DNA of 52,580 nt, from the IMG/VR virus record IMGVR_UViG_3300044712_000547, positions 1 to 52,580 of that record; one strand, given 5' to 3'. Position numbers and translations under genes: made by a program. The notes under the pieces were generated by a model. That model had not been told where the DNA came from. It did not search any database and worked only from the letters and a program-made list of their open reading frames with translations. Below, piece by piece: positions 1,188 through 40,572 of this stretch. How positions within the stretch are numbered: position 1 is the first letter of the stretch; every line of letters begins with the position of its first letter. The stretch comes from a virus.

Positions 1188-2299
1188 CCCTCTTCGAATC
1201 CGGCTTGAGCGACGAGCAGCACAGCGCCAGAGTGCGCGGTGGCGGGAGGCGTCGGCGACAGGGCGGCTAGCTGCCCGATGAACAGCGAATGAACCGTGGC
1301 GATGAGCCACATTCCGGCGAGCGAGTTGGTGTTGTCCGCCGCGCCGTGCACGGCCGTGTTGACCCGGTGCGCCTCATACGAGCGAAACACGTCACCCAGG
1401 GCCGCGTACGCCTCGCCGACATCGGCCGCGCTCGTCATGAGCGGCAGGTTCGTCAAGTCGTTGACGTTGGCGCCGCCGACCTTGTGATACACGGACGTCG
1501 CGCTGTCCGGGCCGCCGCCCTTGTCGTTCGTCATGTGCTGACGAAGCGCGCGGAGGATGGCGGTCATCGACGCGGGCAGCGACGCGGGGGTCGGGGCCGA
1601 CCCGTGGCCAACGGCGATCTTGTTGTCGGTGTCGGCCGCGTTGTGCGTGGTCGAGCCAAGCGCCAGGTGCGCGTTGATCTTGCTGACCATGTCGGCGAGC
1701 GTTGTGCTCAGCGTTCCGAGGCACGTGGACGCGACCATGTTGGACAGTGCCGCGACGGCGCCGACGACGCCGGAGTGTTCGGCGGCGGAGCGAGCCTTGT
1801 CGGTCGGGTTGTCGCCAAGGTCAACTCGCGGAGACACCTCGCCGTGTGTGTCGAAGGTGGTCGGCCGGATCGTGTCGTTCCAGACCCAGACGATGAGGTC
1901 CGCCGTGTCCGCGCCATACCCGAGCTTCGTCTTGAGCCGCTGGCCGACGTAGAGGTAGACGGTCTCCTCCGCGCCGACGGGTGTCTCGGTTGGTGCGGCG
2001 TTCGGGTCGCCAGCGTAGCCGCCGCCGTACGACGTGCCGCGCGTGTACGCCTGCGCCTTCAGCGTGTACTTGCCCGAGGCGGTCGGGGTCCAGTACCACG
2101 GGGTCACGCCCGCGTCGCCCTCGTAGACCTGGACGCGGTTGGCGGTCGTGTCGGCCTTCAGCGCCGTGTCCTCTTCCGAGCCGGTGGGCGCGACGGTGCA
2201 CCAGACGCGCAGCCACGAGCCGCCAGCGCCGGCAAACATCACCTTGACCTGTCGGTTCGGAACCGGATAGGTAGGCGTGCAAGTTGCGGTGATAGTCAT
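1184..2299 (-). CDS. tail-tip or fibre-associated protein of unknown function
   Basis: This 371-residue protein sits between two fibre-like genes, so a tail-tip role is inferred from position. The first 150 residues look like an Ig-like beta-sandwich (YPVPNRQVKVMFAGAG; WTPTASGKYTLKAQAYTRG). The rest is Ala/Thr/His-rich and probably helical, with H-N-A-A-D-T-D-N and H-G-A-A-D-N-T-N elements that look like two copies of a short repeat. No enzyme motif is visible. Its stop overlaps the start of the fibre gene, so the two are likely coupled in translation. Confidence 0.7.
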   Translation of the reverse strand: MTITATCTPTYPVPNRQVKVMFAGAGGSWLRVWCTVAPTGSEEDTALKADTTANRVQVYEGDAGVTPWYWTPTASGKYTLKAQAYTRGTSYGGGYAGDPNAAPTETPVGAEETVYLYVGQRLKTKLGYGADTADLIVWVWNDTIRPTTFDTHGEVSPRVDLGDNPTDKARSAAEHSGVVGAVAALSNMVASTCLGTLSTTLADMVSKINAHLALGSTTHNAADTDNKIAVGHGSAPTPASLPASMTAILRALRQHMTNDKGGGPDSATSVYHKVGGANVNDLTNLPLMTSAADVGEAYAALGDVFRSYEAHRVNTAVHGAADNTNSLAGMWLIATVHSLFIGQLAALSPTPPATAHSGAVLLVAQAGFEEG

Positions 2300-2305
2300 G
2301 CTACC

Positions 2306-2333
2306 TTGCGACCGCGCAATACGTGGCTAGAAT
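2306..2333 (+). promoter_or_regulatory. sigma70-like promoter for the lipoprotein gene
   Basis: The sequence shows TTGCGA (2306-2311), a 16-bp spacer and TAGAAT (2328-2333). The ATG at 2341 lies 7 nt after the -10 box, so the mRNA would start at or next to the start codon (leaderless). No Shine-Dalgarno sequence is visible. Confidence 0.5.
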
Positions 2334-2340
2334 GGTCGGC

Positions 2341-2598
2341 ATGGTGAAGATGGTAGTGCTGGTTTGCGCAGTGCTGGCGGGGTGCGGCGGGGCGGTGGCG
2401 GAGGCGGGCGACGCGGGAACGGACGCGGTGGCGTGCTCGGCAACGCCAGCGCGGTGGGAGCCGTACTGTTCGGAACCGGCCCGGCCGTTCACGCTCACCG
2501 ACTGCCCCGACGCCGACGTGGTCCACGTAGACGGCAAGACGTGCCGCGCGCAGGCCAACGTCCTCAGCGAGTGGTATTGTTGCCTGGCGTCGGATTAG
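2341..2598 (+). CDS. small secreted lipoprotein, counter-oriented accessory gene
   Basis: This 85-residue protein has a short signal peptide and a lipobox: MVKMVVLVCAVLAGC, with the lipidated Cys at residue 15. The mature part has seven further cysteines, including a YCC near the end, suggesting disulphide bonds in the periplasm. The start of the mature part (CGGAVAEAGDAGTDA) has the Gly/Ala/Asp-rich linker common in myxobacterial lipoproteins. It lies on the strand opposite to every neighbour inside the tail operon and has its own promoter, the usual sign of a lysogenic-conversion (moron) gene. GTG at 2323 and ATG at 2332 are alternative in-frame starts. Superinfection exclusion or an outer-membrane spanin are possible roles, neither shown. 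Its stop overlaps the stop of the convergent fibre gene. Confidence 0.7.
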   Translation: MVKMVVLVCAVLAGCGGAVAEAGDAGTDAVACSATPARWEPYCSEPARPFTLTDCPDADVVHVDGKTCRAQANVLSEWYCCLASD

Positions 2599-3227
2599 CT
2601 GCCGGCAACCTTGAGCCAATCGGTTCCGTCGAAAGACGAGCGAATCCACCCAAACGAACCGCTGGTGAACGATGCTAGCGTGTTATTGATGGGCCCGTCG
2701 TTGTAGACGATCACGGAGCCGGGGCCGACGCCGTTGTGTGCGACGTGGATCGAGTCCCCGTTGGCCGCGCCGCTGGTTGACAGGTGAATCGTGCGCACGG
2801 TGCTGGCGCACACAGACAACACGTCGTCGCACGTCGTTGCGTAGCAGGTTACGCTGGTGTTGTTAACCTTCTGTAGGCGTCCGGTAATCTTGGCGTTGGT
2901 CCCCACGGTCATGGTGCCGCCAATGTTGGTCGTGCCGTTGAGGCTCAGCGTGGACCCGGAGTTGGCGGAACCCGACGCGCCGGACGCAAGGGCAAGCGTC
3001 GCCCCGCTGGCCACCGTGAGCGTCCCGGCCAGGCTGTGCGCCCCGGTGGACTTCGTGGCTAGGCCGCCGACGGTCAGCGTGCCGGACAGTTCGATCGGGC
3101 TATTCGCGTAGGTGCCGCCGCCGTCACCGTCCACCGCCTTTGGCATCTGGGTGCCAAACAGGTTGATCTGGGTGTCGGTGATCGGGTCGCCGGTGTTCCA
3201 TCCGGCCGGCTTCGGATTTGTTAGCAT
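2595..3227 (-). CDS. tail fibre-like protein, Gly/Ser/Thr-rich beta repeat
   Basis: This 210-residue protein starts with MLTNPKPAGWNTGDPITDTQ, a pattern common at the N-termini of phage tail fibres. Residues 45-115 are low-complexity G-T-L-T-V and A-S-G-A-T-L repeats of the kind that form trimeric beta-prisms or beta-helices. The C-terminal half has four cysteines and ends in a compact beta-rich domain (GFGWIRSSFDGTDWLKV-like). It probably forms part of the fibre or tail tip. Its stop is convergent with, and overlaps, that of the plus-strand lipoprotein gene. Confidence 0.7.
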   Translation of the reverse strand: MLTNPKPAGWNTGDPITDTQINLFGTQMPKAVDGDGGGTYANSPIELSGTLTVGGLATKSTGAHSLAGTLTVASGATLALASGASGSANSGSTLSLNGTTNIGGTMTVGTNAKITGRLQKVNNTSVTCYATTCDDVLSVCASTVRTIHLSTSGAANGDSIHVAHNGVGPGSVIVYNDGPINNTLASFTSGSFGWIRSSFDGTDWLKVAGS

Positions 3228-30349: not shown

Positions 30350-30631
30350 TCAATTCGGCAACTTCGTCGGGTCCGGCGGCGGCTCCTTGCTGTCATCGCC
30401 GTCGTCCGACAGGAGCGCTTCGATACCGTCCACGCGGTCGCTGACGTGCTGCGCCAGTGACTCCACCGCCGCCAGTTCCGACCGGCGCGCGTCGCTGCCG
30501 CCCTCAAGCATCGCCAGGCGCGTCTCGTGGTTGATGACCGCGTTCACGATGAACTGCTCCACCGACAACCGGAGCCAGTTGCGGAAGTGGAGACGAACTC
30601 GCTCCGACAGGTATCGTCGCAGGGTCAGCAT
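30350..30631 (-). CDS. hypothetical helical protein
   Basis: This 93-residue protein is mostly helical (RVRLHFRNWLRLSVEQFIVN; ELAAVESLAQHVSDRVDGIE) with a Pro-rich end. Its start lies inside the last codons of the upstream glycosyltransferase gene (7-nt overlap). No family is recognised. Confidence 0.5.
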   Translation of the reverse strand: MLTLRRYLSERVRLHFRNWLRLSVEQFIVNAVINHETRLAMLEGGSDARRSELAAVESLAQHVSDRVDGIEALLSDDGDDSKEPPPDPTKLPN

Positions 30632-31875
30632 GGCTTTGACTCTACCGCCGCCTTGCGCGCCCTATACGCTGCCCCCAACTCCAACAGGACGTCGGCCCAC
30701 TTGTGCGCGTTGGCCTCGATCGTCCACGACTGCCACACCGCCTCGTACCCGGCCGCGCCAAGCCGTCGCCGCTCCGTCTCCGACGACACCAGCAGGTCGA
30801 TGGCGTCGAACCAGTCCTTTTCGTCATTGTTGCGGATAAGCATCGCGTGGTCGGCGTGCGGCCGGTACGGCTCGATGTCCGTCGCGATGACCGGCACGCC
30901 GGCTGCGGCGTGGGCCAGGATGCCGACGTCCGACTTCGCGCGGTTGAAGTCATTGAACACGAGCGGCACAAGCCCCACGTCCAGCGACGGCCAGAGTTTG
31001 CTCATCAGGTGCGTCTGTTTCTCAAACGCGACGTTGATGGTCCGGTCCTGCGGCAACGCGGCAAGCGGGTTCACGTCCTCCCACGACCCGTCTGCCGCCC
31101 GGTGCAAGTCCTGCCCGAACGCGCCGAGCCGCACGAACCACATGTTCGGGTGCTTCTCCATCGCCTTGGCCAGCGGCGCCTCTAGGACGTGGATGTCCTC
31201 CCAGTGCGTCGGCGACCCGGCCCACCCGACGTTGACCGTCTCGCGCGACGTGCCCCACGGCGACGGGTCCGGTAGCGTCCAGTCGTCCGGGCGGAAGCTA
31301 TTGGGCAGCACAACGGTCCGCTTGGCCAGGCCCGAGTAGAGGCCGGCGAGGTACGGCGTCGAGAATGAGCAGACGTCGGCGAGGCCCGTGAAGGCGTTGC
31401 AGCCCTCGTTGAACTTGAGCCGCTCGAGCGACTCCGACGCCGGGTTGTACGACGGCACGCCGTCGAGCCAGTCGTCGTTGTCGTAGATGATCGGCCGCCC
31501 CGTCGCCTTGTACGCCTCGGCGATCTTGAGCGACCAGGTGTTGGTGCAGCGCTGGAAAAAGAGCACCTCGGGCCAGCCGATAAGCTGCCCCTCGTTGGAC
31601 GTATAGGCGTTCATCGACACGCGGATGTCGAAGCGCGGGTCTTTCGCCAGTTCCATGCACCACGGCCAGACGCGCCACGGCGACACGCCCGGTTCGCCGA
31701 TGAAGACCCAGACCCGGAGAGCGTCGGCGTTGCGCTTGACGCCAAGCTCAGCGAGGTACGTCTCCCACGTGTCGCAGTAGTCCATCGGACGACCCTTGTC
31801 GTCCACCGGCATGCCGCTCACGGTCTGCTTGCCACGGATGCCATAGACGGCATCCAGGAACGTACGGTCGTTCAT
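30625..31875 (-). CDS. glycosyltransferase, GT-B (family 1/4-like)
   Basis: This 416-residue protein starts at ATG 31875. It has a GT-B layout: an N-terminal domain with LRVWVFIGEPGVSPWRVWPW and TGRPIIYDNDDWLDGVP, then a linker, and a C-terminal nucleotide-sugar domain with VNVGWAGSPTHWEDIHVLEA, LVPLVFNDFNRAKSDVGILA and the acceptor/donor motif AAAGVPVIATDIEPYR, all typical of family 4. It is the last enzyme of a radical-SAM, methyltransferase and glycosyltransferase cassette, and probably builds or modifies a glycan. Confidence 0.8.
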   Translation of the reverse strand: MNDRTFLDAVYGIRGKQTVSGMPVDDKGRPMDYCDTWETYLAELGVKRNADALRVWVFIGEPGVSPWRVWPWCMELAKDPRFDIRVSMNAYTSNEGQLIGWPEVLFFQRCTNTWSLKIAEAYKATGRPIIYDNDDWLDGVPSYNPASESLERLKFNEGCNAFTGLADVCSFSTPYLAGLYSGLAKRTVVLPNSFRPDDWTLPDPSPWGTSRETVNVGWAGSPTHWEDIHVLEAPLAKAMEKHPNMWFVRLGAFGQDLHRAADGSWEDVNPLAALPQDRTINVAFEKQTHLMSKLWPSLDVGLVPLVFNDFNRAKSDVGILAHAAAGVPVIATDIEPYRPHADHAMLIRNNDEKDWFDAIDLLVSSETERRRLGAAGYEAVWQSWTIEANAHKWADVLLELGAAYRARKAAVESKPC

Positions 31876-32546
31876 GCCTCCACCTTCGCACGGGTTTGCG
31901 CGGGGCCGGTCTTGTGCGCCGCGAACAACACCCCGTTCCCGACCTTCCCCCCCATCTCCGGGTCGTCTCGGAACAGGAACACGAGCGGCTCCCACTGGAC
32001 GCCGCTTGTCTGCATGAACCACGTCATCAGGACCCACAGCGACGACGGCGTGAAGACAGACCAGTGGTGGTCCGACTCGCCTTCTTCGGGCGTGGCCGGC
32101 GTCGTGTGCCGCGTGATGGCGTCCTGGATCGTTGTGACCGGACGGCCCTTGTCGATCTCGTTGTAGTCGCGGCCGGGGACGATGAAGAAGACGATCCCGC
32201 CGACGGCGAGCACGCGGTCCCATTCGAGCAGCGTCGCCACGAGGTCGCGGCAATGTTCCAGGACGTGGCTGGACACCACGTAGCCCTGCGAACCGTCGGG
32301 GAATGGCAGGGCGCCCGCGTCCGCCACGACATCGACCGGCGCGACACGGCCGCACAGTTTGCGTTGCTCCGAGGCGTACTGCTCTGGCGGTGGGTTGCAG
32401 CGGTCAACGAAGATGCACTCGCCCTTCAGGTTGAAGGCGTTGTGAGCGGCAGCACCAAGCTCGATGCCTTTGCGCCCGTCGAGCAGATGGTGAGCCAGCG
32501 ACGAGTCGGGGAAGAACCACGGGAAGGGGATGTTGGGGGTTGTCAC
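31872..32546 (-). CDS. class I SAM-dependent methyltransferase
   Basis: This 224-residue protein starts at GTG 32546, overlapping the radical-SAM stop (GTGA). Motif I is GIELGAAAHNAF, followed by DVVADAGALPFPDGSQGYVV and the post-I motif SSHVLEHCRDLVATLLEWDR ... GGIVFFIVPGRD, characteristic of methyltransferase type 11/23. DHHWSVFTPSSLWVLM is seen in sugar or lipid methyltransferases. Position between glycosyltransferase and radical-SAM genes suggests methylation of a sugar or nucleotide substrate. Confidence 0.78.
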   Translation of the reverse strand: MTTPNIPFPWFFPDSSLAHHLLDGRKGIELGAAAHNAFNLKGECIFVDRCNPPPEQYASEQRKLCGRVAPVDVVADAGALPFPDGSQGYVVSSHVLEHCRDLVATLLEWDRVLAVGGIVFFIVPGRDYNEIDKGRPVTTIQDAITRHTTPATPEEGESDHHWSVFTPSSLWVLMTWFMQTSGVQWEPLVFLFRDDPEMGGKVGNGVLFAAHKTGPAQTRAKVEA

Positions 32547-33838
32547 ATTGCCTCGCCTTCTGCCATCAGTTGGAACAGCCGCTCTTGATCCACGCCGCCC
32601 ACGTACACCGTGTCGTTGTCGCGCCGCGCCTGGCACCACGCAGCGAAGTCGGGGAAGCGCGAGTGCCGGAACGAAGCGAAGGGCCCAAGTCGCTCCCACC
32701 TAAAGTCCGGCTGTCCAGGTTCACCGCTCCTGTTGTGTTCGCAGTATTGGCAACCGTCTAGGTGCTCGTCCCAGTCTCGGTCACAACTCGCCACCCAGTC
32801 ATTCCACACCTTCGTTCCGGGCAGCGGCGCGAGGACGTTGACCACGCCGTCGGCCAACTTGCCAGCCGCCATGTTGCGGTTGCGGAACTCGTAGGTGGCA
32901 CGCACGTCGTCCTCGGTTTCGCCCGGCCAGCCGACGATCAGGCTGCATGCGCACGGAATGTGTGCCTCGGCCAGCACCTCAAGAGCCACCTGGTTGTCCG
33001 CCACCGTCGCGCGCTTGTTCGCCGCCTCCAGGATCCGATCGCTCCCCGACTCGGCGCCGAACGCCACGCACTGGACGCGCAGCCGCTTTAGCAGCCCGCA
33101 CAGCTCCGCATCGACGAGGTTTGCCCGGACCGCCAGCGTGTACGCGAACCGCTGCGCCAGGCCGCGCGCGTCGAGGAGATCGACGATGCGGGCGAAGCGC
33201 TTGCGGTCCGCGATGGCGAGGTCATCTTGGATCGACAGCACCGTCGTGTTGGGCTGGGTTGATGCGATGTGGGCGACATGGGCGGCCACGTACTCTGGGG
33301 AATGCCAGCGGACCCCTTTCCAGAAAGCTGACGACGAGCAGAACGTACAAGCGTACGGACAGCCGCGCGAGGTCTGAAGGGTCACCGGCTCGTTCGGATC
33401 GCGCCACGGGAACGGGAGGGAGTCTAGGTCGAGCGGCCCAGCCGCTCTGTACATGCACCCCCTTCTCGGCTTGTGCTTTTCGATCAGAACGTGGAGCATG
33501 TCGGACAGAGCCGCTTCTCCCTCGCCGGCCACGCCCCAATCCATCTCCGGCGCCAGCGTCTCCGGCAGCGCGGTGATGTGGTGCCCCCCGATGACCGTCA
33601 CAATGCTCGGCTTGTACGCCTTCGCCTTACGCGCAATCTCGCACGCCCGGCCGTAGTTCTCCGACGTCGCCGAGATGGCCAGGACGTCGGTCGTCTCGAT
33701 CGATACGCCAGGCTCGTAGCGGTCCATCGTGACGCCCGACACTTCGCGCTCCACGTATGCCTTGAGGGCACCATGCGCCGCGCTTGGCATCCACTGGACA
33801 TCCCACGGCGCGGTCGGCTGGATGAATGTGACTCTCAT
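32543..33838 (-). CDS. B12-binding-type radical SAM enzyme
   Basis: This 431-residue protein has an N-terminal B12-like Rossmann domain (VLAISATSENYGRACEIARK; IVTVIGGHHITALPE), then the radical-SAM cluster motif RGCPYACTFC with cysteines at 160, 164 and 167, and later FGAESGSDRILEAANKRATV and SLIVGWPGETEDDVRATYEF, typical of the family. The usual DxHxxG cobalamin motif is not obvious, so cobalamin may bind in another way or not at all. It shares coupling overlaps with the methyltransferase and the small gene upstream. Confidence 0.82.
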   Translation of the reverse strand: MRVTFIQPTAPWDVQWMPSAAHGALKAYVEREVSGVTMDRYEPGVSIETTDVLAISATSENYGRACEIARKAKAYKPSIVTVIGGHHITALPETLAPEMDWGVAGEGEAALSDMLHVLIEKHKPRRGCMYRAAGPLDLDSLPFPWRDPNEPVTLQTSRGCPYACTFCSSSAFWKGVRWHSPEYVAAHVAHIASTQPNTTVLSIQDDLAIADRKRFARIVDLLDARGLAQRFAYTLAVRANLVDAELCGLLKRLRVQCVAFGAESGSDRILEAANKRATVADNQVALEVLAEAHIPCACSLIVGWPGETEDDVRATYEFRNRNMAAGKLADGVVNVLAPLPGTKVWNDWVASCDRDWDEHLDGCQYCEHNRSGEPGQPDFRWERLGPFASFRHSRFPDFAAWCQARRDNDTVYVGGVDQERLFQLMAEGEAM

Positions 33839-34071
33839 GCTTGGATGTCCCGTTGCGACAGCGCCAGAAGATCCGCCGCAAGTTTGGTCAGCACCTCAGC
33901 CGCCGTTGCGGCCGACCTGGCAGCACCAATAAGATGGTCACGCTCCGGCGCAGCGTCCCACACGTCGTTCGTGGCCCCGTAGATCGCGTCCGATTGCTGC
34001 GCGGCCTTCGCTGCCGCCTCAAGAAGCGCGGCGACCACCGGAACCAGTCTGTACAGTCGCACCGTTATCAT
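33835..34071 (-). CDS. small protein with N-terminal hydrophobic segment
   Basis: This 78-residue protein starts at ATG 34071, overlapping the glycosyltransferase stop. The N-terminus (MITVRLYRLVPVVAALLEAA) is weakly hydrophobic; the rest is Ala-rich and helical (RSAATAAEVLTKLAADLLAL). It lies between two modification enzymes and may be a small partner of one of them; the evidence is positional. Confidence 0.5.
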   Translation of the reverse strand: MITVRLYRLVPVVAALLEAAAKAAQQSDAIYGATNDVWDAAPERDHLIGAARSAATAAEVLTKLAADLLALSQRDIQA

Positions 34072-34838
34072 GTGACCTCCAGCAACCCCGTCGCCTCTTC
34101 TTCCGTCTCGGTCGGCGCGTCGTCTCCTATCCCGTACCGTAGCGCCAGTTTGCGCAGGGCCTCGGCGCTGAAGCCGTGCGGGTTGTCGGCCAGCCATTGC
34201 GCGTATGCCTGCGGCGACTTGCCAGCCTTCGGGTTGTTCGCGTAGTAGTCCGCCCACGCCCGGCACTTCTTCGTCATCTGCTCCGACGACCGGACCGGGA
34301 AGTGTGCGAGCGGCACGTCGGTCCGGTGCAGCTTCACCAGCTCCTTGTCGGCCCTGTACCGGATCTGATGCGCCCCCACGAGCGGCACGATCTCAACGTG
34401 CGGCGCCAGGTCGGCCGGCACCGCGCACTTGACGTATTCGCGCCCCTCCGGCTTGCGGCGGTAGAACTGGCCATCGATCGGCACGTACGTCTGCCACGCG
34501 AACGACGCGCAATGGTCGGGTGGGACGGCCGCGAGATGTGCCCACAGTTGCGAGCGCGAGCAATCAAGGAACTCGTCGGCGTCCAGGAACACGTACCAGT
34601 CGGCCCCGTTCTCGTGCATCGCCGCCGTCATGGCCGCCGAGTGCAGCGCGGACGACTCCTTTCGATACAGCCGCAGCGGCGCCCCGTAGTCGCGCATCAT
34701 GCCGAGGAGCGGGACGGTCCGGTCCGTCGAGCCGTCGTCGATGACGATTAGTCCGTCGAGCAGGCTCTCGTGGTGATCGACCCACTCGCAGATTAGGTCG
34801 TCTTCGTCGCGCACCACGGCGATGCCAAGGATGTTCAT
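34068..34838 (-). CDS. glycosyltransferase family 2 (GT-A)
   Basis: This 256-residue protein has the GT-A pattern: ILGIAVVRDEDDLICEWVDH, LIVIDDGSTDRTVPLL, and a DxD-type site in DWYVFLDADEFLDCSRSQLW. The HQIRYRADKELVKLH ... H-F-P-V-R segment is common in GT2/GT92-type enzymes. The start ATG 34838 overlaps the upstream stop. It transfers a sugar from a nucleotide donor; the acceptor is unknown. Confidence 0.8.
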   Translation of the reverse strand: MNILGIAVVRDEDDLICEWVDHHESLLDGLIVIDDGSTDRTVPLLGMMRDYGAPLRLYRKESSALHSAAMTAAMHENGADWYVFLDADEFLDCSRSQLWAHLAAVPPDHCASFAWQTYVPIDGQFYRRKPEGREYVKCAVPADLAPHVEIVPLVGAHQIRYRADKELVKLHRTDVPLAHFPVRSSEQMTKKCRAWADYYANNPKAGKSPQAYAQWLADNPHGFSAEALRKLALRYGIGDDAPTETEEEATGLLEVT

Positions 34839-35017
34839 CGACCCTTCTCCAGCCGCTCCGCCATGAGCGTCAGCGACAGCGCCGCCCCGATTGCCAGCGA
34901 CGGGTCGCCAAGCGCGCCATTCGCGGCCTCTTTCCACTCGGCCGCTCCGGCGCGAATCTCGTCGATAACCCACTTCGGGACCGGCTCCCTCCGCTCCGCC
35001 TTTGCGCTATCGTCCAC
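34835..35017 (-). CDS. hypothetical small protein
   Basis: This 60-residue protein starts at GTG 35017 and is helical (EIRAGAAEWKEAANGALGDP). It overlaps the GT2 gene by 4 nt and the tiny gene upstream by 11 nt. No family is recognised. Confidence 0.5.
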   Translation of the reverse strand: MDDSAKAERREPVPKWVIDEIRAGAAEWKEAANGALGDPSLAIGAALSLTLMAERLEKGR

Positions 35018-36859: not shown

Positions 36860-37416
36860 ACCGCCACCCTACCCGACGTTTGCGCAGCCACCGCCGCGCG
36901 TAGTTCGATGAACCGCTCCAGGAACGCCGCCTCGGCCTGCTCGGGAGTGAGTGGGTGGATGTACTCGTAGTGCGGATAGCATGGCAGTCCCCACCGCTCC
37001 TTCGGGTCGCACACGCCCATCAGGTCCCGCGCCTCCGTGGCCAGCGCCAACAGGTCGGCGGTCTTCACCGACTCGTCCAGCGGCACGGAGAACCCGAACC
37101 GTTCGGCAATGGCGCCCATGACCCCGTGCTCGCACTGCCCGTAGTCGGCCATGAACGGGGCGCGCTTGAGCGGCGACGGCACGTCCGACACGTACGCCTC
37201 CGGCGAGTCGTGCATGAGGGCCGGGAAGGCGTGCTCTTTGGGGACCAGGCGCGACACCAGCACCGAATGCTGCGCCACGCTGTAGAACCGCCGACAATGG
37301 CCATTGAACCGACATTGCAGCGACAGCGCATGGGCGATGTCCAGGATGTCCACGTCCTCGGCGCGCGGGTTGGCCAGGTCGAAGCGGTGACAGGTGTATG
37401 TCTGGATCCAGGTCAT
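36856..37416 (-). CDS. HD-domain phosphohydrolase
   Basis: This 186-residue protein starts at ATG 37416. It has the metal-binding HD signature: SVAQHSVLVSRLV, then FPALMHDSPEAYVSDVPSPL, and VKTADLLALATEARDL. This matches the YfbR-type 5'-nucleotidase/HD family common in phages, which could adjust nucleotide pools. The C-terminal AAQTSGRV is part of a motif shared with other gene ends here. Confidence 0.75.
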   Translation of the reverse strand: MTWIQTYTCHRFDLANPRAEDVDILDIAHALSLQCRFNGHCRRFYSVAQHSVLVSRLVPKEHAFPALMHDSPEAYVSDVPSPLKRAPFMADYGQCEHGVMGAIAERFGFSVPLDESVKTADLLALATEARDLMGVCDPKERWGLPCYPHYEYIHPLTPEQAEAAFLERFIELRAAVAAQTSGRVAV

Positions 37417-38207
37417 CGTTTCACCTCCGGCCATTGCTGGACCCGCAACCCCTCGGGCCACTCGGACATGTCGCGGCCCTCGGCGTCTTCGGTCTTGAAC
37501 TGAACCCACCCGCGACACATTGGTGGCATTCGCATCGGCCGACGGCCCAACTGTTTGACGAACACCGGAACGCTGGCGGCGCAGCACTCGGCCACCAAGC
37601 GCTCGGCGGCGTTCATGTCGAGCATGCGCGCCTTCGGTCCGCTCTCCCCGCCGATGATGACCCAATCGGGAAGCGTTGCGAACCCGCGGAACGAGATCGG
37701 GCCTAGCATCGGCTCGACGGACAGGAACCGAACGCGCGCATCGATCCGGCTCAACTCGTCCCATCGGTCCGCCGCGTGGCACTGGTCCTCGGCCGTAACG
37801 CCAAGCCACACGTTGGGCGGCAAGTGCTCCGGCGCCAGAATCTTGATGTCGTGATGGCGCTTGGTTAGTAGCAGCCAGTCCAGCCACGGCGTCTCGGCTA
37901 TGAGTGGCCAGAGGCGGGCGCGGTAGGCGTCCAGGTCACGGCGGTCTTCGAACACGTCGGCCATCGACGCACAGAACACCTTAGCTCGCTTGCTGGCGGC
38001 CTCGGCGGCACGGTTCCACGCCAGCGGTTCGGCCCAGTGCTTCGGCCCGAACGACCGGCGCGGGTAATCGCTGCCCCACAGCTTCAAGCCGAGGCGCTTT
38101 GAGAACGTCTCCGCGTAGCAGTTGGCGCAGCCCGGAGATATGGCCTGACAACCCCACCACGGATTGAACGTGTGATCGGTCCAGGCAATCTTGCTGTCCT
38201 TGCTCAC
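37413..38207 (-). CDS. Gp37/Gp68-family protein (DUF5131), radical-SAM-like
   Basis: This 264-residue protein starts at GTG 38207. It begins KIAWTDHTFNPWWGCQAISP and carries the cysteine pattern C-x6-C-x2-C (WWGCQAISPGCANC) typical of DUF5131 phage proteins, which are related to radical SAM. Other family blocks include FCASMADVFED, LLTKRHHDIK and VEPMLGPI. The function is not established. It is preceded by a leader (CACAGGGGGCGGCG) shared with the next upstream gene start. Confidence 0.75.
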   Translation of the reverse strand: MSKDSKIAWTDHTFNPWWGCQAISPGCANCYAETFSKRLGLKLWGSDYPRRSFGPKHWAEPLAWNRAAEAASKRAKVFCASMADVFEDRRDLDAYRARLWPLIAETPWLDWLLLTKRHHDIKILAPEHLPPNVWLGVTAEDQCHAADRWDELSRIDARVRFLSVEPMLGPISFRGFATLPDWVIIGGESGPKARMLDMNAAERLVAECCAASVPVFVKQLGRRPMRMPPMCRGWVQFKTEDAEGRDMSEWPEGLRVQQWPEVKR

Positions 38208-38794: not shown

Positions 38795-39297
38795 GCAGCC
38801 TCCTTGCGGGTCAGGTGCTTCCACGTGTGCCCGTTCACGAGCGCAAACACGCAATACTTGCTGACGCAATACAGCTTCGCCAGCGCGCGAAGCGACACGC
38901 CTCCGGCGGCGTACCGAACCAGAATCTCGCGCGCGGTCGACTCGGTGAGGGAAGCGTTCCCGTTCTTCTCCCCTCGCGCGGTGGTCTCCGGGGTGGTGTG
39001 TCTGCCGTTCTTGGATCCGAATGCCTGACGTCGCTTGGCGTCTCTGTCTGCGAGATTGTCCGCGTTGGTCCCAAGGAATAAGTGGGCTGGGTTCACGCAC
39101 AGGCGGTTGTCGCACGCGTGGCACACGCACATGCCGTCGGGGATGCGCCCGAACGCCAACTCGAACGACACACAGTGGGCGCCGCGCTTCTTTCCGCGCA
39201 AACGAAAGCGCCCGTACCCGTCGCGGTCTGGTTTGGCTGTCCACGTCCAGCATTCTTTCTCCGAACCAACGCGCACCTTCGACCAAAATCGGTCCAT
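38791..39297 (-). CDS. HNH homing-type endonuclease
   Basis: This 168-residue protein has a NUMOD4-like start ([16 protein letters not shown]) and an HNH core ([20 protein letters not shown]). The C-terminal segment, [20 protein letters not shown], looks like a DNA-binding helix-turn-helix. Such free-standing enzymes spread between phages by cutting cognate sites. It abuts the end of the RNA ligase gene. Confidence 0.78.
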
Positions 39298-40475
39298 TAC
39301 GCCGCCTCTTTTCTGCACAGGTAACCCTCGCCCGCCAGCTTCAATTGCACTCTTCCGAAGTGCGGGTCGCGCCTTTCCACCACGGGGCGAACCACAAAAC
39401 CCTCGCGACAGTGCTTGGCCCCCGGCATCGTGGACGGCCCCTCGGCCAGCTTCATGAGGTCCAGCGACCAGGGCCCTCGGTAGAGCGTCGGCACGATCGG
39501 CAGGTCCCATTCGGTGCAGAGCTTGTGCAGTTCGTCAACCGACAGGTACGTCCGCGTCTTGGCGTCCATCGCGTCGAACACCACGAACCGCACGCCCTCC
39601 GACTCGGGCACGCCGTATTTGAGATCCTGGACCTTGCCGTACGTCTCACCGAACAGCACGAGGCCGGGCCGCGTCGCAAGCTTTGCCTCCAAGCCGTACC
39701 GCTCGGCGACCTGCCACCATACGTTGTCCTTGTCGAACTTGAACACCGTCCGGCTACCGACGTAGAAGCGCTTGCCCGTGTGCAGATAACGGGAGTTGCA
39801 GCCGTGGACCTTCTCCGACAGCCACACCTCTTCGCCTTCGGCCAGAAGCGACTTGTACTTGCGCAGCCCTTCGATGTCGTAGACGGGCACGGTTGGCGCT
39901 TGGCAAGCGGCGCGGTGCCGAAGGATCGTCAACTTCGCTGCCGCCGCGCAAACGAACACGATCAGGGCCACGGTCCACGCCGGCCAGCCGACCAACGCGT
40001 CGGCGACAGCCAACAGCGCCGACGTCACGAACGCCACCGCCCACGCGGCCCGGTCGAACCGCGCCGTCTCGCTCGCCTTGGCGGATCGCGTCCGGTTGTG
40101 GTTCGGCTCCGGCGTCTCGCGCTCGGACGGCGGCTCCCACTTCTCGACGCCCAGCACCGCGCGCACGTCGTCGCCCTCCTTCGCGCCAGCGGGCGCCGGC
40201 ACGAGCAGCCCCATCGAGAACACGCCGCGAAGCTTCTTGGCCTTGACCCGCTCGTGGGTGCGACCCTTGCCGGCGTCCAGAAACTTGAACTCGGGCCGGC
40301 CCACCGGCACCAGCGCGTCCACCGGTACGTAGACGGCCAAGTCTCCCGGGGCGTAGTCGCCCGTGCGGAAGATGCACGGATAGCCGCCGTACACGTCGCA
40401 TATGCTCAGCGTGTCGGCGTTCGGATGCTTGCGGACTTCGCCAATGCGGACCACCTCGACTCGGAACTCGGTCAC
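39297..40475 (-). CDS. RNA ligase (DRB0094-type) with two-helix membrane insertion
   Basis: This 392-residue protein has an N-terminal OB-like domain (residues 1-60; [20 protein letters not shown]) typical of the DRB0094 group and an adenylyltransferase core starting [20 protein letters not shown], with the nucleotidyl-lysine motif [10 protein letters not shown] (Lys about 222). Motifs [16 protein letters not shown] and [11 protein letters not shown] fit motifs IIIa and IV. Residues about 143-183 form two hydrophobic spans ([33 protein letters not shown]) that are not part of the family. The gene lies 20 nt after a tRNA-Gln gene. Confidence 0.85.
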
Positions 40476-40495
40476 GTGTCACCTCCTGTTGTCTT

Positions 40496-40572
40496 TGGCT
40501 GGCGGGGAAGGGTTCGAACCTTCAACCGATCGGATCAGAGCCGATTGCTCTAGCCAGTTGAGCTACCCGCCA
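40496..40572 (-). tRNA. tRNA-Gln (CTG anticodon)
   Basis: All elements fold by eye: a 7-bp acceptor stem (TGGCGGG with CCCGCCA), D arm GCTC/GAGC, anticodon stem ATCGG/CCGAT with loop CTCTGAT (anticodon CTG, decoding CAG), T arm GAAGG/CCTTC with TTCGAAC loop, discriminator G73 and an encoded CCA. The U1-A72 pair and G73 are glutamine identity features. It lies between the stop of the SH3-like gene and the RNA ligase, in the same direction. Confidence 0.95.

Follow-up and report, generated by a model that had tools for sequence, protein, structure and literature searches.

Does a phage RNA ligase that carries two hydrophobic spans, and whose gene lies beside a tRNA gene, point to RNA repair held at a membrane? 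The question is raised by the virus record IMGVR_UViG_3300044712_000547, whose 52,580 bp (hereafter the window) carry a contractile-tail phage gene set with terminase, tail sheath, tape measure and baseplate J; the record may be incomplete. On its minus strand a replication-initiation protein gene is followed in turn by genes for a DnaB helicase and an unknown protein, a tRNA-Gln(CTG) gene and an RNA ligase gene (Table 1). The ligase is a rare hairpin-bearing variant of the known Rnl5 phage ligases and is probably membrane-held. Were the anchor real, phage RNA repair would gain a location, and one could test if defences that cut RNA operate at the membrane.

Table 1. Features of the ligase locus, in window coordinates.
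Feature	Position	Strand	Evidence
Rnl5-type RNA ligase, 392 aa, GTG start	39297..40475	-	Pfam PF09414 and PF21189; PHROG 968; AlphaFold2 (AF2) fold match to NgrRnl
N-terminal OB domain, residues 1-118	40122..40475	-	PF21189 at 7-93; phmmer match to NgrRnl at 11-117
Insert, residues 119-196	39888..40121	-	AF2; hydropathy; insertion energies; insert at the same place in L012
Adenylyltransferase domain, residues 197-392; catalytic Lys222, Glu277, Lys379	39300..39887	-	PF09414 at 215-379; invariant columns in 41 sequences
20-nt gap between tRNA and ligase	40476..40495	-	carries the AGGAGGT ribosome-binding site
tRNA-Gln(CTG), encoded CCA, discriminator G73, U1-A72	40496..40572	-	ARAGORN; Rfam RF00005

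Family and domain structure of the ligase

The ligase reading frame opens with a GTG codon preceded by a ribosome-binding site, and two Pfam profiles divide the product between them, the PHA02142 OB domain at its N-terminus (E 6e-13) and RNA_ligase over the catalytic portion (E 2.5e-26), while PHROGs assigns the protein to RNA ligase family 968. A sequence search of the PDB leads to the Naegleria RNA ligase (E about 1e-14) and a fold search with the AF2 model has NgrRnl (6vt4/5cot) as its best PDB match (E about 1e-20), with the T4 Rnl1 and Rnl2 structures ranking far below; the T4 Rnl1 profile PF09511 finds no match in the window ligase. The lysine of the SEKVHG motif is Lys222, which in an alignment of 41 sequences is invariant together with Gly225, Glu277, Glu358 and Lys379. 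The protein ends 13 residues past Lys379, with no C-terminal domain beyond motif V, as in Rnl5. By sequence and modelled fold the enzyme is thus of the Rnl5 type represented by NgrRnl and DraRnl, not of the T4 Rnl1 type, and the preliminary description, which had recognized a DRB0094-type ligase with its catalytic lysine kept, was right in this respect. Rnl5 enzymes seal 3'-OH/5'-PO4 nicks in duplexes, a property also stated in the title of the 5cot entry, and the T4 Rnl1 type is the repairer of anticodon breaks.

Both NgrRnl (PDB 5cot, 6vt0-6vtg) and DraRnl (DRB0094) share with the window ligase an N-terminal OB domain followed by the adenylyltransferase domain with its conserved motifs. NgrRnl differs in having a short linker without a hydrophobic hairpin, and the fold alignment gives only about 20% identity between the two proteins. 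Phage ligases of PHROG 968/PHA02142, such as those of the phiKZ-like Phabio and of PAK_P1-like phages, have the same domain order and family profile as the window ligase but lack a membrane-type hairpin in the members examined; in the phiKZ-like members the linker instead holds a conserved amphipathic helix. Searches with the single ligase protein and with the terminase returned no relatives, and genome matches that covered only about residues 1-91 of the ligase were set aside as other OB-fold tRNA-binding domains.

The hydrophobic insert and its distribution

The insert occupies the linker between the OB and adenylyltransferase domains and comprises a charged N-terminal flank, two predicted helices (residues 127-162 and 166-191) and a basic C-terminal flank (KLTILRHR). 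Its hydrophobic spans cover about residues 142-162 and 165-187. The two spans described earlier are therefore present, although the length of about 80 residues given for the insertion was too great: counted on the alignment, the linker is longer by about 64 residues than that of L020, a ligase 52% identical to that of the window. The peak Kyte-Doolittle mean over 19 residues reaches 2.16, within the membrane range and the highest of all the homologues; Asp158 and Lys181 are the only charges in about 43 residues; positive residues stand at both flanks and the turn is uncharged. In the AF2 model (mean pLDDT 92, pTM 0.86; input alignment of 41 sequences from the window and the fetched loci) the insert forms a helical hairpin lying between two confident domains and outside both. 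This placement, as proposed in the preliminary description, and the absence of the hairpin from the 52%-identical L020 led us to reject the view that the spans are core helices. The GC3 of the insert, 0.90 where the domains on either side have 0.90 and 0.86, marks it as genuine coding sequence, and a frameshift or chimera was rejected on the reading frame, GC3 and the counterpart in L012. A fusion with a holin-like gene was likewise rejected, the match to Phage_holin_3_6 being non-significant (E 0.66).

Among about 125 homologous ligases drawn from IMG/VR, phage records and one genome contig, a hydrophobic insert in the linker is found in the window ligase and in one other, L012, from the 102-kb phage IMGVR_UViG_3300044946_000220; the remaining roughly 123 lack a hydrophobic span there. 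The L012 insert sits at the same place, so that the hairpin is kept, still hydrophobic, in a second phage. The two ligases are about 50-53% identical overall and 57% over the shared core, but their inserts have diverged much further than the remaining sequence. AF2 again predicts a hairpin for L012 (helices 143-165 and 167-190), with pLDDT of about 62-78 over the block, lower than in the window model. Since the L012 record and the window have only the ligase, DnaB and a replication protein in common, they are not two copies of one phage. In the core tree L012 is the nearest to the window ligase; a single origin of the two appears in 46% of bootstrap trees and is not established. A functionless insert, whether neutral, in decay or a product of mis-assembly, would agree with its presence in only two of about 125 sequences, but the recurrence of a hydrophobic insert at one position in two phages with little else in common, the coding-like GC3 throughout and the retention of all catalytic residues make this reading very improbable.

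Phages related to the window outside the ligase bear on how the gene is held. In G041 the tail sheath is 64% identical to that of the window and most structural genes are similar; it has a single tRNA-Val and no RNA ligase was found in it. G014 has several head-region proteins in common with the window, and its ligase lacks the insert. The ligase gene is thus accessory. The preliminary description had taken insert-less homologues in otherwise identical phages, with no tRNA nearby, as evidence against its proposal; G014 goes part of the way to such a case, and the closer relative G041 shows no ligase.

For the shape and hydrophobicity of the hairpin there is backing from prediction and from a single independent homologue, and the insert is probably a membrane anchor by which the ligase is held. 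Computed insertion energies, which are only estimates, give -1.29 for the best and 0.86 for the second span of the window ligase and -2.09 for the best span of L012, against a median best span of 3.88 in the other 123 homologues. The positive flanks and the uncharged turn fit an N-in/C-in hairpin with both domains cytoplasmic. However, the estimates are poor for span 1 of the window ligase, which holds Asp158, and for span 2 of L012, so that a hairpin dipping halfway into the membrane, or a non-membrane contact, is also possible. In the latter case the hairpin might pack against a protein partner or a second copy of the ligase. Such packing would suit the weak insertion score that each protein has for one span, as well as the finding that this linker hosts other helical modules, the phiKZ-type ligases carrying there a conserved amphipathic helix that has a PWP motif. 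We nevertheless think it rather unlikely, because the window and L012 inserts share hydrophobicity and little sequence, unlike a typical protein interface, and because about 43 residues with two charges are bordered by positive flanks on both sides. A phrase search over a set of papers gave no instance of an RNA ligase described as membrane-bound, membrane-anchored or transmembrane.

Other linkers of these ligases are also occupied. In the phiKZ-like ligases L288, L289, L290 and L011 the amphipathic helix ending in the PWP motif (e.g. DWYGNLVRRILKGLDGSLMPWP) is conserved, and the ligase of Tunturi_3 (L005) has a basic aromatic helix between the OB and catalytic domains; this linker seems to have taken up helical modules repeatedly. 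In L003 (MW202637) the homologous ligase (593-1600) matches in two pieces, the annotated start lying inside the OB domain and the remainder upstream, which is likely to reflect a wrong start or a frameshift.

The adjacent tRNA gene and the question of tRNA repair

The tRNA-Gln(CTG) is canonical (Rfam RF00005, 63.4 bits, E 9e-13) and points in the same direction as the ligase. ARAGORN and Rfam bear out the earlier account of a complete tRNA with an encoded CCA end 20 nt ahead of the ligase start, and a sequence scan found no terminator-like site between the two on their strand. Several ligases lacking the hairpin likewise follow immediately on a tRNA of their own strand, namely L026 (12 nt), L194 (16 nt), L048 (19 nt) and L195 (24 nt), and these adjacent tRNAs, that of the window included, differ in isoacceptor (Gln, Ile, Lys, Lys, Gly). 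L026 and L194, which are 51-54% identical to the window ligase and unlike it have a short linker, fall in one small clade of the core tree. Of the 11 clade records with tRNAs, three show a tRNA no more than 60 nt ahead of the ligase, where 0.20 would be expected (P = 6e-4), a count that includes the window itself and whose P becomes about 0.015 without it by a hand estimate. Counts of tRNAs within 4-5 kb over 30 records were left out as a test, some of the records having been chosen for their tRNAs. The ARAGORN scan of the loci, which covered about 5 kb around the ligase, placed all tRNAs of L002, L006, L022, L023 and the tRNA-bearing members of L026-L223 on the ligase strand.

The anchored ligase of L012 lies about 35 kb from the single tRNA (Asn) of that record, and L026, L194, L048 and L195 have the adjacent tRNA without the anchor; the two features are therefore independent. 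A ligase beside a tRNA thus recurs in relatives, as expected from the preliminary description, but the coupling of anchor and tRNA that it envisaged is not supported. The adjacency is probably meaningful and a property of the wider ligase clade, not of the anchored form, and the recurring pair gives an easy way to ask which tRNAs are protected by these ligases.

The tRNA and the ligase could also be mere neighbours, the tRNA serving the CAG codon and the ligase acting on other RNA or on RNA/DNA nicks. In favour of this, CAG is used 23 times per 1000 codons against 6.9 for CAA, Rnl5 enzymes are sealers of duplex nicks, the tRNA is distant from the ligase in L012 and several other records, and no healing enzyme was found in the window record, where AAA_33 kinase, PNK3P, RtcB and RlaP gave no match over 52.6 kb (possibly incomplete). 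Against it, an adjacent upstream tRNA recurs beyond chance with different isoacceptors, and G002, a relative with an adjacent tRNA, also encodes an AAA_33 kinase and RlaP. We give this alternative a substantial chance, if somewhat below an even one.

We lean slightly towards a different account, in which an ATP-dependent Rnl5 ligase with a hairpin in its linker is membrane-held, co-transcribed with tRNA-Gln and serves RNA repair. Lys222 would be auto-adenylated, pass AMP to an RNA end with a 5'-phosphate and allow its sealing to a 3'-OH. The helical hairpin, inserted in the linker that joins the OB domain to the catalytic domain, would most likely dip into the cytoplasmic membrane or cross it twice from the inside, leaving both domains in the cytoplasm and the enzyme held at the membrane. 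The ligase would probably be transcribed together with the upstream tRNA-Gln and would act in RNA repair during infection, with tRNA as one plausible substrate. The domains, catalytic residues, insert, tRNA and spacing can be read from the sequence; the enzyme's membrane location, its substrate and an anti-defence role are what we infer.

The membrane-tethered tRNA repair originally put forward finds less backing, the ligase being of the nick-sealing Rnl5 type, not T4 Rnl1, and no end-healing enzyme having been found in the record. The Pnkp/Rnl1 repair of T4 also involves a phage RNA ligase and possibly has the link to tRNA in common, but Rnl1 belongs to a different family (PF09511) and no Pnkp was found in the window. 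Since no enzyme that heals ends turned up in the record, the breaks that metal-independent nucleases make could be sealed only if healing came from the host or from an unseen gene. In jumbo phages, ATP-dependent ligases commonly occur together with healing enzymes and with tRNAs (PMC7824862). Of the related records, that of L012 has an AAA_33 kinase and that of L026 both AAA_33 and RlaP. A role in tRNA repair is thus plausible. We considered a VapC11-type enemy, which cuts tRNA-Gln(CUG), with kinase-free sealing of 5'-phosphate ends, and dropped it since the ends are reported as 5'-OH (PMC6459853). The broader idea that RNA repair is sited at the cytoplasmic membrane in some phages, through a membrane hairpin in an Rnl5 ligase, to mend tRNAs or other RNAs after cutting by nucleases whose place of action or entry is the membrane, is speculative and we regard it as improbable.

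Some further genes were observed. The L012 record encodes a second RNA ligase, of Rnl1 type (1470-2639, minus strand; PF09511, E 2e-10), 1.35 kb from the hairpin-bearing one. In the window a B12-binding radical SAM protein lies near glycosyltransferase-like genes (32543-33838, 34068-34973 and 30625-32355, all minus strand), possibly a cluster for the modification of DNA, glycans or metabolites, and a DUF5131 protein with an SPGCANCY cysteine motif is encoded at 37413-38207 on the minus strand (E 4.5e-63).
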